Assembly: GCA_029007115.1 (NCBI GenBank)
Contig: JAQXHG010000030.1
Coordinates: 1 to 37,978, forward strand
Reading direction: 5' to 3'
Length of the DNA: 37,978 nt
Source of the DNA: a bacterium
GTDB taxonomy: Bacteria; Bacillota_I; Bacilli_A; RF39; UBA660
In this document: positions 4,418-10,995 of the stretch, piece by piece
Layout of the letters: the number at the start of each line of letters is the position of its first letter
Position numbering within the stretch: the first letter of the stretch is position 1
Notes under the pieces: generated by a model
The model's input: only the letters and a program-made list of their open reading frames with translations
Database searches by the model: none
Told to the model about the DNA's origin: nothing
Made by a program: the position numbers and the translations under genes

Positions 4418-5254
4418 TTATTTATCCTCATATAGAGGCAAATTATCTATATTTTTAATAAGTAATCTACTATCATCTTTATACATAAGAACATCCGTAC
4501 TTAAATTAATAGAATAATTACCAATTGTTGCAATTACATCATTATTATGTTCATCTATTATAGTATACTTATCATTAGTTTTATCATATATTTCAATTTG
4601 ACCTTTATAATTAACAATAACATAAGATAAAGCATCTAAATCATACTTTTTTCCGTCTACTACAACACTAGTATCATAAATGAAGAAATATAAATTATCT
4701 CCATCATATAAGAAAGATTCTTCTAAATAAACTTTTTTATCATATTTATTAACTAAATATGCCATATCTTGATTTGTATCATTTTCACATATTATTTTAC
4801 TAAAATAATTAATTCTATAACTTTGATTCTTAATTCTTGGTATAATTAAAGACATATTTTTAGCAAAAAAAACTTGATTATCGACTTCACTAAAATATAT
4901 TGGCGCATCCTCTATATTTTCAATCCCAACATCTTGAGATAATTTAATCTCATCATTATTTTTCTTTATTGTAAGTTTTCCTTTATATTCTACTTTAACG
5001 CCTTGAAAATATTGATATAAATTATGATTTTCTTCTGTAGTTAACTGATATTTATTAAGATTTCTATAATATAAGAATATAACTATTGAAACTATCAAAA
5101 GAATGACAGAACAAATAATAGAAACTAATATAATTCTTAATTTCTTTTTATTTTTTCTTTCCTTATTAACTTTTTTTCTTGTATCAAGCAATCTTTTCTT
5201 TAAAGTTTTCTCATCTACAGTATTAATCATATTAATTTCATTATCATTTTGCAT
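4418..5254 (-). CDS. Single-span exported protein at the end of the ATPase operon
   Basis: This 278-residue protein has a basic, probably coiled N-terminal tail (about 1-40, inside the cell), one membrane helix (about 42-65) and an extracellular beta-rich domain of about 210 residues. It starts 11 bases inside the preceding gene behind a strong AAGGAGGAT site, so it belongs to the ATPase operon. Its outer domain resembles the membrane-proximal parts of the proteins starting at 4347, 13417 and 18690: each has a 'D/N-x-K/N-aromatic' strand followed by a strand ending in a G-hydrophobic turn and later an INL-type strand (here IYDTSVVVDGKKYDL and IGNYSINLST). It lacks the FN3 repeats, so it could be the minimal version that sits next to the motor. 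No known family recognised. Confidence 0.8.
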   Translation of the reverse strand: MQNDNEINMINTVDEKTLKKRLLDTRKKVNKERKNKKKLRIILVSIICSVILLIVSIVIFLYYRNLNKYQLTTEENHNLYQYFQGVKVEYKGKLTIKKNNDEIKLSQDVGIENIEDAPIYFSEVDNQVFFAKNMSLIIPRIKNQSYRINYFSKIICENDTNQDMAYLVNKYDKKVYLEESFLYDGDNLYFFIYDTSVVVDGKKYDLDALSYVIVNYKGQIEIYDKTNDKYTIIDEHNNDVIATIGNYSINLSTDVLMYKDDSRLLIKNIDNLPLYEDK

Positions 5255-5759
5255 TTTTTATCCTCCTTCTTGAGTCTCTCAATATTAACTCAGTCTTTCT
5301 CATCGTTATAAATAATCCATAAATAAGTATCATTATCATAAATAAAACACTTAATATTAGTACATTCTTATCATAATATATTTCATTTATATAAATGTAT
5401 ACTAAACTATATAATTTTAAACAAGCAATAGTCACAAAAGCATATAATATATCAAATAAAATAATATGAATATTTAAAGAAATACATAAAGATAAAAATG
5501 TATTAATAACAATTAAATAAACAGCTAAATTATTAAATCCTTTTATATAAAAACTAAAAAATAATATAAAAGATAAATTCAATATGCACGAAGATAATAA
5601 TACTATACTTCTTAAATTTAAATTTAAAAATAATGAATAAAGATTAGTTCTTTTTTTATTATATTTCATTGTAGCAAAAAACAATATTATTGCGATTATT
5701 ACAATAAATACACTCAAGAAAATATAATAAGGATAAATAGAAACTAAACTTTGTATCAT
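5244..5759 (-). CDS. Five-helix membrane protein of the ATPase operon
   Basis: This 171-residue protein is almost entirely membrane helices, at about 10-30, 50-71, 76-98, 99-122 and 132-152, and ends in a basic cytoplasmic tail (RDSRRRIKNAK). It starts 2 bases after the epsilon stop and overlaps the next gene by 11 bases, so it is translationally coupled to the ATPase. It is the only multi-span protein in the operon and could take the place of subunit a, but it is shorter than subunit a (usually about 240 residues) and I do not see the LRLFGN-type arginine helix. An alternative is a membrane scaffold joining the rotor or stator to the neighbouring exported proteins. Function unknown. Confidence 0.8.
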   Translation of the reverse strand: MIQSLVSIYPYYIFLSVFIVIIAIILFFATMKYNKKRTNLYSLFLNLNLRSIVLLSSCILNLSFILFFSFYIKGFNNLAVYLIVINTFLSLCISLNIHIILFDILYAFVTIACLKLYSLVYIYINEIYYDKNVLILSVLFMIMILIYGLFITMRKTELILRDSRRRIKNAK

Positions 5760-5761
5760 TA

Positions 5762-6022
5762 TTATTCACCTTTATCTTTTATAATCAAGTAAAATAAATT
5801 TCTACTTAAAGAATAAAAACCATTTATATTATCATATCTTATATTTCTCTCACCTTCTATAGATATAGAACCATTTATTTCCCCAACTACTGGCCAATAA
5901 TCTTTTAAAATTAATAAACTATAATTATCACTTTTAATTCTAATTATTTTTACGTTTTCTACTTCTTCTATTTCAATACCACTATCTAATATTATGACTT
6001 TTAATTCTTTCCTACTTTGCAT
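5762..6022 (-). CDS. atpC: F1-type ATPase epsilon subunit, short form
   Basis: At 86 residues this corresponds only to the N-terminal beta-sandwich of epsilon, which binds gamma and the c ring. The alignment cue is [14 protein letters not shown], matching the usual 'GILPGHAPL' region, followed by an SISIEG strand. The C-terminal helical hairpin, which inhibits ATP hydrolysis in many bacteria, is absent. It starts 11 bases inside the beta gene, behind AGGAAG, keeping the canonical beta-epsilon order. Loss of the inhibitory hairpin would fit an enzyme meant to hydrolyse ATP. Identification relies on position and the sandwich pattern because the sequence is divergent. Confidence 0.75.
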
Positions 6023-7370
6023 TTTTCATACTTCCTATAAACATGAAATTACTCTCATCAACATCATCATACTTTCCATATAAAATATTTTCAACATCAT
6101 CAAGGGTATCTTCAATATTAACAAGTTGTCCTTTCATACCAGTATATTGCTCAGCAACAAACATAGGTTGAGAAAAATAATTACGAAGTTTTCTAGATCT
6201 ATAAAATATTTTTTTATCTTCTTCTGATAGTTCATCAAGTCCAAGTACTACTATTATCTCTTCTAATTCTTCATATCTTGTTAAGTATTTTAATGCTTGT
6301 TCAATTAATTCAAAATGTCTTTGTCCTATATATTCTGGATCAACTAACACACTTGTAGTTTTAAATACATTAATCGCAGGATATATACCTTTTTCAGCAA
6401 CACTTCTATCTAGCACTATTTGACCATCTAGATGGCCTGTTATAGTTTGAACTGCTTCATCTGTATAATCATCTGCTGGAATATATATAGCTTGAAATGA
6501 TGTAATAGAACCTTCACTAGTTGAATTAATTCTCTCTTCTACTTCTGATACATCTGATACCATTGTTGTTGGATATCCATTTTCAATTGGACTTCTACCT
6601 AATTCAGCAGATATTTCACTTTTTGCTTGAACAAACCTATATATATTATCAATAAACAATAATACATCCTGTTTCTTTTCATCTCTTAAATACTCAGCCA
6701 CTGTAAGTCCGCTATAAACTGCTTTACTTCTTGATGTAGCATTATCTCCCATTTGACCAAATACTATTGATATCTTATCCAAAAGATTAGTTTCAACCAT
6801 CTCATCATATAATTCTTTACCTTCACGAGATCTCTCTCCAACTCCGATAAATACTGAATTTGATTGAAATTTTTTAAATATATTATTTATAAGTTCTTTT
6901 ATAATAACTGTTTTCCCAACTCCAGCACCTCCAAGAAGCCCTAATTTAGAACCTTTTTGTATTGGTGAAAAAAAGTCAATTACCTTAATTCCTGTCCATA
7001 GTATATCACTTTGAATGTTAATTTCACTTAAAGCAACATTCCTATCATAAACACCTCGTTGCTTTATAGATGTAAATTCTTTATTATCAATTACTCTTCC
7101 ATAAGAATCAAATACTCTACCAAGTGCATTTTCAGAGTATTCCATTGATAGTTTTGAATTGTTTAAATTAACTGGTAGACCTTTTTTTAGGTAAATAACA
7201 CTATCAAAAGGAATAGTTTTTGCAATATTTCCATTAACTTCCATTACTTCAAATTTATGTTGCTGATTCATGTAATCTATTGTTAAAATATCGCCTACAA
7301 TTACACAATCAGGTTTATTTAACAACACTTTAACATTTAAATCTGAAATAGCGATTACAGTTCCTATCAT
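6012..7370 (-). CDS. atpD: F1-type ATPase beta subunit (catalytic)
   Basis: This is a full beta subunit of 452 residues, with every key catalytic element visible: P-loop GGAGVGKT (147-154), catalytic Glu and neighbour in GERSREG (E179, R180), Walker B VLLFIDN (D241), the stretch [14 protein letters not shown], and the lever motif DELSEED (379-385), which contacts gamma. ATP hydrolysis is therefore expected. It follows gamma by 1 base with AAGGAGG as the ribosome site, in canonical order. It is somewhat divergent from housekeeping AtpD (for example [13 protein letters not shown] where FGQMNEPPGAR is usual), which fits a specialised paralogue. It could still be the only F1 beta of the cell; the window cannot tell. 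Confidence 0.96.
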
Positions 7371-9959: not shown

Positions 9960-9982
9960 AGTATCACCACACTTTATCCTTT

Positions 9983-10747
9983 TTATATACTATAGTCGTA
10001 TACGACTCCTTTATATATTATTTTAAATCCCTCTGTTATTTCTTTATCATAAATAGTTTTAATATTTGAATTAATATAATTATAATTTTTATTTTCATCA
10101 CCAACATATATTAATACTTCAGGATTTGATTTCATAATTAAATTATCTAATTTATCTAAGAATTTAATTATATTAAATTTTTTAACATCTAATAAATTAT
10201 TTAATAATTTTTTTTCATTTTTAGTTAATAAGCCATTTACTATAATTTTTTGTTCTTCTGATTGATAAGTCATTATCTTGTATACGCTATTATAATCAAA
10301 ATACGATCTGATTTTCGTATATATATTATAATTTTTATCTTCTCTATATTTTTCTTTTATAAATTTATTTATTATCTCTTCTGCTTTAAAATTAAAACCC
10401 TCTTTTATTTTTTTATAACCTGTTAATATATTACCATCCTCAAAATCTGCTTGATCAGGTAATACTACATCAGTTACTACTATCTCTTCTTTATCTATTT
10501 TCTTTTTCCCAAGTTCATTTATTTCTTCTTCTAGCTTAAAGTATGATTTCTTTCTTTTATCTATAGTATTATTTAAATCATCTATCTTCTTTTCTTTATT
10601 ATCTATTAAAAAATCATATTCTTGTAATTTATCTACAAAAATATTTCTTACAAGAACATTTACTCTTCTAGAAGTAGCAGCAAACAAAATAACTAAAATA
10701 CATAGTAGTATAACTACTACTATAATTGCGATTATTATTTCTGACAT
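9983..10747 (-). CDS. Peripheral-stalk subunit: b-like N-terminus with delta-like C-terminus
   Basis: The 254-residue protein begins with a membrane helix (about 3-24) and a charged coiled coil (about 35-82), as in F0 subunit b. Residues about 95-254 form an extra domain whose end (EITEGFKIIYKGVVYDYSI) resembles the end of the delta subunit ('I-GG-hh-h-h-G--hhD-S'). Usual b is about 165 residues and no separate delta gene exists here, so I infer a b-delta fusion, as known in some actinobacteria. An E-subunit-like C-terminal domain is the other option. It starts 2 bases after the c stop with no clear ribosome site, suggesting coupling to c translation. It would anchor the F1 head to the membrane. 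Confidence 0.75.
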   Translation of the reverse strand: MSEIIIAIIVVVILLCILVILFAATSRRVNVLVRNIFVDKLQEYDFLIDNKEKKIDDLNNTIDKRKKSYFKLEEEINELGKKKIDKEEIVVTDVVLPDQADFEDGNILTGYKKIKEGFNFKAEEIINKFIKEKYREDKNYNIYTKIRSYFDYNSVYKIMTYQSEEQKIIVNGLLTKNEKKLLNNLLDVKKFNIIKFLDKLDNLIMKSNPEVLIYVGDENKNYNYINSNIKTIYDKEITEGFKIIYKGVVYDYSI

Positions 10748-10749
10748 AT

Positions 10750-10995
10750 TTACGATGCGAATGGATTAAAGAATAATAGCATAAAGCAAAACGCAAACAT
10801 TAATAAGATAAATATAGATAGAATTATCATTATTATCATTAATGAACTAACTATTTCATTTTTTACTTCTGGGTTTCTACCAACTGCTTCTGCAATTTTA
10901 GAGCCTAATATACCAACACCAACTCCAAATCCCGCTAGTGAAAAACCCATAATCATTCCTATAGAATCCATTATTGAAGAGATAACTTGTTCCAT
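10750..10995 (-). CDS. atpE: F0 c-like rotor-ring subunit lacking the ion-binding carboxylate
   Basis: An 81-residue hairpin of two helices. Helix 1 keeps the glycine packing motif ([18 protein letters not shown]) and the polar loop keeps RNPE (40-43), so a c ring is expected. In helix 2 the conserved Glu or Asp that binds H+ or Na+ should lie about 18 residues after the loop proline; here that place is S60 or I61 and there is no acidic residue anywhere in helix 2 (51-76). The ring should therefore not carry ions. It is the first gene of the ATPase operon, with its own promoter and a strong AAGGAAGGT site. Confidence 0.9.

Follow-up and report, generated by a model that had tools for sequence, protein, structure and literature searches.

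What does an F-type ATPase do when its membrane ring lacks the residue that binds an ion and its genes are flanked by large surface proteins? The 37,978-nucleotide contig JAQXHG010000030.1 of assembly GCA_029007115.1 (Bacillota_I, lineage RF39, UBA660), which in its entirety is the window referred to below, poses this question. It carries genes resembling the c, b, alpha, gamma, beta and epsilon genes of ATP synthase, followed by genes for two membrane proteins of 171 and 278 amino acids (aa), with the surface proteins S1 and S2 on one side and a giant surface protein on the other. An initial annotation, made from the letters alone, proposed an ATP-driven rotary or lever machine that has lost its ion coupling and stator and acts on surface proteins of a walled cell. 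We consider it probable that the operon encodes an ATP-driven rotary motor built on an F-type chassis, with its ion path lost and its mechanical work directed at the large surface proteins, and the best reading of the sequence comparisons is that this motor is separate from the gliding and antibody-removal motors of mycoplasmas. The F1-type ATPase, the lack of a recognisable ion path and the conserved association with surface proteins thus stand from the earlier proposal; the full loss of the stator parts does not.

To place the window among its relatives, one genome for each of 84,980 species was scanned with a gamma alignment as query. This yielded 146 relatives, and all locus counts below refer to the best 80 of the 146 (the named loci). 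The catalytic residues said to be intact could all be located in the window proteins: the P-loop of beta from residue 147, E179, the DELSEED motif from residue 379 and, in alpha, the SVSR arginine at R360. Among relatives, 72 of 72 alphas carry the P-loop and Arg-finger motif, and 76 of 76 betas carry both the P-loop and GER[ST]REG. On these sequence features, a head able to hydrolyse ATP is well supported. Beta passes the NCBIfam atpD cut-off (476.5 bits versus 462.85) and alpha falls under its own NCBIfam ATP synthase cut-off (430.8 versus 554), while gamma aligns with ordinary gamma (hhalign 97.5%) and with the mycoplasma Type 3 gamma (88.9%). The small protein encoded after beta has no Pfam or NCBIfam match, and a Protein Data Bank (PDB) profile search with its family gave nothing useful; calling it epsilon-like is a weak assignment that follows its position, size and a shared motif.

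The c subunit retains the glycine-rich first helix and the RNP loop (RNPE in the window) through which c contacts gamma and epsilon. As the initial annotation had claimed, the ion-binding residue is missing: the window c has Ser60 at the carboxylate position, and in our alignment none of 77 new c rows is acidic at this column (Thr in 33, Ala in 23, Ser in 17, Met in 2 and Val in 2), versus Glu in six of six ordinary c subunits. The 77 rows comprise the window, 10 family relatives and 66 named loci and amount to 72 distinct strings; repeats are among them, as the contigs of L028, L029, L031, L033 and L039 are equal in length to those of L043, L047, L070, L069 and L115, respectively. Loss of the usual ion site is therefore a well-supported reading of these sequences. 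Within the window's genome (1.24 Mb, 92.8% complete), no subunit a (PF00119) was detected up to E = 10, the sole PF00137 match is the operon's c, and the two PF00006 matches are the operon's alpha and beta, so that a search for a second, ordinary ATP synthase operon returned none.

A broader view comes from 24 carrier genomes, picked manually from the genomes of the 80 loci so as to cover a wide spread. Ten contain subunit a, in every case alongside additional alpha/beta genes of F1 type (only partial ones in G151). The other 14 lack it, and one of these (G163) holds sets that look V-type by length. The operon is the only rotary ATPase found in the assembly in 13 of the 24. Third PF00006 matches of about 88–103 bits are presumably Rho. 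The ten carriers hold 12 subunit a genes, usually on the same contig as the further F1 genes; in G158 the further F1 set is spread over short contigs, and in G151 one a gene neighbours the partial alpha and the second is by itself on a short contig. Across the class, 114 of 149 genomes contain subunit a. An ordinary ATP synthase completed by a subunit a gene elsewhere was rejected, because all 12 a genes are confined to genomes with further F1 alpha/beta genes; nowhere among the 24 does subunit a accompany this operon alone, the arrangement that the initial annotation had named as the mark of an ordinary synthase.

The initial annotation correctly noted that a separate delta gene is missing. 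The last 99 columns of the b family (82 rows) match ordinary delta/OSCP (hhalign 73%, E 3e-5 for the single comparison; control pairs in the same test gave 0.0–5.6%), so delta is probably fused to b and not lost. The name b follows the protein's place, its N-terminal transmembrane (TM) helix and the delta-like part; a PDB profile search with the family gave nothing useful. In the 61 of 76 alpha rows measured, the first strand motif is preceded by a median of 25 residues, a stretch that we read as a retained N-terminal helix. With a probable b-delta fusion and this helix retained, the head could be kept stationary, a prerequisite for rotation. Full loss of the stator parts, as first proposed, is thus not borne out: the probable fusion and the alpha stretch are kept, and a possible relative of subunit a is present.

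That possible relative is the 171-aa protein. No subunit a is recognised by sequence (PF00119), as the initial annotation had stated, but the predicted fold of this protein is suggestive of one. Its AlphaFold2 model (predicted local distance difference test score, pLDDT, 92.1) begins with a TM helix and continues through a short amphipathic helix and a hairpin to a long hairpin, which we take to be the order of subunit a. VIA-align matches it to the ATP synthase chains 9jc2_C (Z 9.2, 142 residues aligned), 9o1a_a (Z 8.5, 157) and 6b2z_M (Z 7.8, 153), all three spanning nearly the whole model among the 50 structural matches listed, and also to the V-type chain 8eas_a (Z 5.7); we take these chains to be subunit a on the basis of their titles, chain letters and residue numbers. 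Foldseek returned no match for the model at E ≤ 0.001, and a PDB profile search with the family gave nothing useful. Across 62 family rows, helix 97–127 shows no counterpart to the essential Arg of subunit a, none of its positions having a conserved Arg; residue 61 is basic in 46 of the 62 and Asn in the window. The model suggests that the 171-aa protein is a candidate ion-dead relative of subunit a.

The gene order reported for the window was confirmed by its open reading frames (ORFs; Table 1) and recurs across the named loci. The eight genes from c to the 278-aa protein overlap or are separated by at most 23 bases, all on the minus strand; about 960 bases separate S1 and S2 from c, which they precede, and the giant comes after the 278-aa gene. 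The common locus among relatives reads S1, S2, c, b, alpha, gamma, beta, epsilon-like, 171-aa, 278-aa, giant. A search of related genomes for this order with a carboxylate-less c, which the initial annotation had proposed, found the run from c to the 278-aa gene complete in 54 of the 80 loci; the others are mostly cut contigs, one group with fused genes and a few loci in which gamma has moved. Linkage to three large surface proteins likewise recurs. An S2-sized ORF lies directly upstream of c in 55 of the 57 loci with enough sequence (the one in L048 is probably another protein), S1 precedes S2 in 52 of 53, and a giant directly follows the 278-aa gene in 48 of 57. Three of the nine loci without an adjacent giant have a large ORF slightly further off (L051, L067, L078). 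The remaining six genomes, picked for a search because no giant lies near the operon, contain a giant elsewhere in five cases (ORFs of 2,239 to 3,292 aa; in G159 on the same contig), and three of three adjacent-giant genomes searched alongside were matched.

Table 1. Features of the operon and its neighbours in the window (positions in nucleotides).
Feature	Position	Strand	Basis
c-like ring subunit, 81 aa	10750..10995	-	PF00137 6.7e-9; hhalign vs ordinary c 97.7%
b-like stalk subunit, 254 aa, N-terminal TM helix	9983..10747	-	no Pfam match above cut-off
delta/OSCP-like C-terminal part of b-like protein (probable)	about 9983-10270	-	hhalign vs ordinary delta
alpha-like subunit, 582 aa	8211..9959	-	PF00006 6.4e-69; Arg360; tree
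P/Q/S/T-rich alpha tail	roughly 8211-8575	-	part of 582-aa alpha
gamma-like subunit (rotor shaft), 271 aa	7372..8187	-	PF00231 2.4e-21
beta-like catalytic subunit, 452 aa	6012..7370	-	PF00006 4.3e-68; NCBIfam atpD
epsilon-like subunit, 86 aa, about the length of the epsilon N-terminal domain	5762..6022	-	position after beta, size, shared motif; conserved in relatives
171-aa membrane protein, six predicted helices; candidate ion-dead subunit a	5244..5759	-	AlphaFold2, structural matches
278-aa single-pass protein, predicted long N-terminal helix and all-beta external domain	4418..5254	-	AlphaFold2; fusions
giant surface protein, first 1449 aa, runs off window at position 1	1..4347	-	complete relatives
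surface protein S2, 487 aa, one N-terminal TM	11954..13417	-	S2-sized ORF upstream of c in relatives
surface protein S1, 1758 aa, one N-terminal TM	13414..18690	-	upstream of S2 in relatives

Seven complete giants measure 2,992–3,731 aa and have a TM segment near each end. A Pfam scan of five giants identified Laminin_G_3 (1.3e-12) and GLUG in the window's close relative and GLUG in two further giants (one just under the cut-off); the Bifidobacterium and G11 giants gave no domain. The scans of S1, S2 and giants detected no protease or immunoglobulin-binding family; in NCBIfam neither S1 nor S2 has a match, and no search aimed at MIB/MIP was made. The Pfam scan of the window likewise left b, the epsilon-like protein, the 171-aa and 278-aa proteins, S1 and S2 without a match above cut-off. 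The N-terminal domains of S1 and S2 are related to each other (hhalign 91%, and 77% without TM helices; score 43 versus a shuffle maximum of 16.8), and the 278-aa protein matches S1 marginally (13%, score 27.7 versus 17.8). Homology of a base shared by all four surface proteins was rejected: once the TM helices were removed, the 278-aa protein gave 0.6% against S2 and 1.0% against the giant, neither significant, and a first giant comparison was set aside as artefactual because it returned 99% for every pairing, those with controls as well. The AlphaFold2 model of the 278-aa protein (pLDDT 89.8) had no Foldseek match at E ≤ 0.001 and no convincing VIA-align match.

Gene fusions also join some of these proteins. 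In one Lachnospiraceae-type group (L055, L057–L060, L063, L064, L088 and L117), profiles built without the fusion loci identified, in nine of nine loci, a single ORF that reads as the 171-aa family (E 1.5e-23 to 1.5e-5) and then the 278-aa family. In eight of eight complete cases, the next ORF combines a giant-base domain (domain E 3.6e-25 to 9.7e-6) with a 278-type domain after it, and the large protein after the fused ORFs retains its own giant base in those eight loci. Because natural fusions of this kind often mark proteins that touch, they would connect the 278-aa protein both to the candidate subunit a and to the giant. Action of the motor on surface proteins is thus supported by synteny, by co-occurrence away from the operon and by fusions.

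The closest precedents are the F1-like ATPases of mycoplasmas, of which Type 3 is required for MIB-MIP to function in Mycoplasma mycoides capri, whereas Type 2 powers the gliding of M. mobile (PMC12994834, PMC3369863, PMC11864180). The Type 3 "F1-like X0" (MSC_0619-type) resembles the new system in its F1-like alpha, beta, gamma and epsilon, its extra membrane proteins and adjoining surface proteins, and its proposed output is also mechanical rather than ionic. The papers describe Type 3 as having no b or delta homologue, no alpha N-terminal helix and membrane proteins unlike known F0 subunits (PMC12994834, PMC3369863), and the alphas of both types as lacking the stalk-binding helix (PMC12994834, PMC3369863, PMC11864180). 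They also agree with the initial annotation that the mycoplasma versions have no c ring. In the alpha tree, 32 new rows (31 named loci and the window) form one group at 99/100 and 12 Type 3 rows form another at 100/100; the long branches of the two meet, which carries a long-branch warning, and the tree does not settle whether they are sisters. The new alpha and beta fall below the MSC_0619/MSC_0618 cut-offs (303 < 520 and 414 < 570 bits), and the window's genome has no Type 3 type match at E ≤ 1e-120. In a comparison with 10 of 14 Type 3 clusters (L222–L225 were dropped for confused ORF calls), the 12-TM gene 1, gene 2 and gene 5 had no similar gene in the locus: against b, the 171-aa and 278-aa proteins, S1 and S2 they reach at most 2.5% in local mode. 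The 171-aa protein gave 10.7% against gene 1 in global mode, and b gave 0.2% against gene 2, which amounts to no similarity.

Type 2, the G1-ATPase, likewise combines an F1-like head with giant surface proteins; its head is thought to move the giants Gli521 and Gli349, and its GliD is proposed to originate from a b-delta gene fusion (PMC11864180). That proposal is notable here, given the apparent b-delta fusion, TM helix included, of the new system. The new alpha reaches 372 bits on the Type 2 model and remains below the MMOB1660/MMOB1670 cut-offs (alpha 372 < 600, beta 397 < 850), the new beta lacks the Type 2 N-terminal domain (it matches model positions 241–685 of 705), and the new system retains both a c ring and a probable b-delta anchored in the membrane. 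Membership in mycoplasma Type 2 or 3 was rejected on the cut-offs, the tree and the absence of shared membrane genes.

Ordinary F1Fo shares with the new locus the order c-b-alpha-gamma-beta-epsilon, the catalytic residues, the c ring motifs and a delta-like stalk part, whereas the new locus has lost the ion carboxylate, has no recognisable a, has a short epsilon and adds surface proteins. The new alphas are also short. Of 73 complete alphas from named loci, 58 measure 438–489 aa (501–544 aa in seven ordinary alphas), 14 measure 519–1416 aa and one, a split gene in L071, 306 aa. The extended alpha tail pointed out in the initial annotation is real in the window, with its 582-aa alpha, but is lineage-specific rather than general. 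Very long tails occur in L047 and L029 (1416 aa), L073 (1090 aa) and L053 (983 aa) and are absent in most other lineages. N-ATPases retain a and the ion site. They resemble the new locus as an extra F-type operon beside a housekeeping one and differ from it by cut-off: the new proteins stay below TIGR03324/TIGR03305 (alpha 360.8 < 750.5, beta 416.5 < 752).

Record titles of the 80 loci name Bacilli, "Tenericutes", Lachnospiraceae, Oscillospiraceae, Peptococcaceae, Family XIII, Coriobacteriales and Bifidobacterium colobi. Within the alpha tree, Actinomycetota rows fall among Clostridia, which suggests transfer. Closer to the window the operon is patchy, with b in 2 of 18 genomes of the genus and, when only its five best assemblies (completeness ≥ 90%, contamination ≤ 5%) are counted, in two of them. 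Among 145 genomes of the family, 12 have an alpha match (11 of this type, window included, and an ordinary-looking F1Fo operon in G067) and 133 have no F1 alpha match at E ≤ 1e-20; most sampled family genomes seem to lack an F-type ATPase. The phylum, by the database's definition, has strong gamma matches in 2 of 392 genomes (8.0e-123, and 5.9e-109 for the window; next best 7.9e-26). The wall attributed to the cell is in keeping with five transpeptidase matches to wall-building enzymes in the window's genome.

Several smaller observations accompany these results. The S2–c gap (10996–11953) holds a terminator-like hairpin on the plus strand at 11064–11088 and a small ORF at 11524–11850, and a promoter scan performed no better than shuffles. 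The L072 genome (G156) has, on contigs C218 and C236, two more alpha/beta pairs similar in size to those of the new type, perhaps two operon copies; JAEEIH01 (L058, L059) and JAQXQC01 (L116, L119) have two loci each. Plasmid and phage searches gave matches below 60% identity only (12 plasmid records at a strict limit, and one phage record). MT837824.1, an unannotated 8 kb "Bacteriophage sp." record with a weak gamma match (21%), is possibly bacterial DNA. Among open-licence PMC papers we found none that describes this locus; the passages on F0F1 presence and absence in a 2025 study of reduced gut genomes make no mention of it (PMC12306168).

How might such a motor work? ATP hydrolysis in the alpha3beta3 head would turn gamma, the epsilon-like protein and the c ring, with the b-delta stalk keeping the head still. 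The 171-aa protein would sit beside the ring in a subunit-a-like place, the 278-aa protein would be fixed to it and to the giant's base, and S1 and S2 would be further single-pass partners. As the ring turned within this frame, the proteins outside would be moved, twisted or reset. Movement, rearrangement or secretion are all outputs that we infer as conceivable; adhesin movement or release of bound ligand is the likeliest, since one giant has a lectin-like domain and three have GLUG motifs. Mycoplasma Type 2 gliding and Type 3 antibody removal provide a precedent for such a motor.

A number of observations weigh against this scheme. The link from rotation to the outside consists solely of linkage, co-occurrence and fusions, and in one genome (L115/G168) a giant was not found. 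The DELS[EP][EA] motif occurs in only 16 of 76 betas, and several subunits resemble their ordinary counterparts poorly in hhalign: the epsilon-like protein at 1.4%, b (its delta part aside) at 4.0% and the 171-aa protein, against 38 ordinary a proteins, at 1.4%. Soluble, unrelated helical bundles reach Z 11.6 on residues of about 45–170 of the 171-aa model, above subunit a, and some rhodopsins cover most of it at Z 4.5–5.0, so its likeness to subunit a is suggestive only. One c (L074) has an Asp one place before the carboxylate column. Individual loci also depart from the pattern: the L038 (G018) beta gene (4812–6161) is split in two by one stop, and L101, L102 and L107 have no c gene within the available stretch, their order being b-alpha-gamma-beta-epsilon-171 and then directly a large protein whose start looks S1-like by eye.

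Within the rotary motor reading, one tentative version has a complete F1Fo-type rotor and stator, minus the ion residues, whose ring would drive double-anchored giant adhesins for surface movement or sweeping. It would be a class of rotary machine in walled bacteria for which we found no description, present in Bacillota and, following transfer, also in Bifidobacterium and Coriobacteriales. Clearly less probable than the main reading, in our estimate, is a reset or release machine of the kind that Type 3 forms with MIB-MIP, in which ATP hydrolysis reopens surface proteins that have bound a molecule from host or food, with no net cell movement. Type 3 mutants lose antibody protection even though MIB-MIP is present (PMC12994834), which fits this idea, as do the Laminin_G_3 domain and GLUG motifs of the close relative's giant and the gut, faecal or rumen samples named in many record titles of relatives; the missing protease and immunoglobulin-binding families and the different clade and membrane parts argue against it.

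Two other accounts fare worse. The giant has membrane segments at both ends and co-occurs with the operon even when encoded away from it, as might be expected if the motor pushed or folded the 3,000-aa chain through membrane and wall. We nevertheless regard such export or assembly as unlikely: no F1Fo part is known to move polypeptides, no channel-like subunit was seen, and S1, S2 and the 278-aa protein have the appearance of ordinary signal-anchor proteins. Least probable of all is an ordinary or modified ATP synthase or ion pump with an unusual ion site. Beta's pass of the atpD cut-off, the possible subunit a relative and stalk, and the genomes in which this is the sole rotary ATPase found speak for it, yet it has to contend with a c column that is never acidic, a 171-aa helix without a conserved Arg, patchiness within the genus, and the 10 carriers that also hold subunit a and further F1 genes.

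If the rotary motor reading is true, rotary ATPases would have been turned from ion pumps into surface machines on a branch apart from the mycoplasma ones, with the c ring as an ion-free rotor. It makes testable the question of whether a c ring can carry torque outside without ions, and two carriers that bear strain names instead of MAG labels, Bifidobacterium colobi LC6 and Lachnospiraceae bacterium G11, may offer material for direct tests. It also bears on annotation: with beta above the atpD cut-off, a genome that has no ATP synthase at all may be annotated as possessing one.

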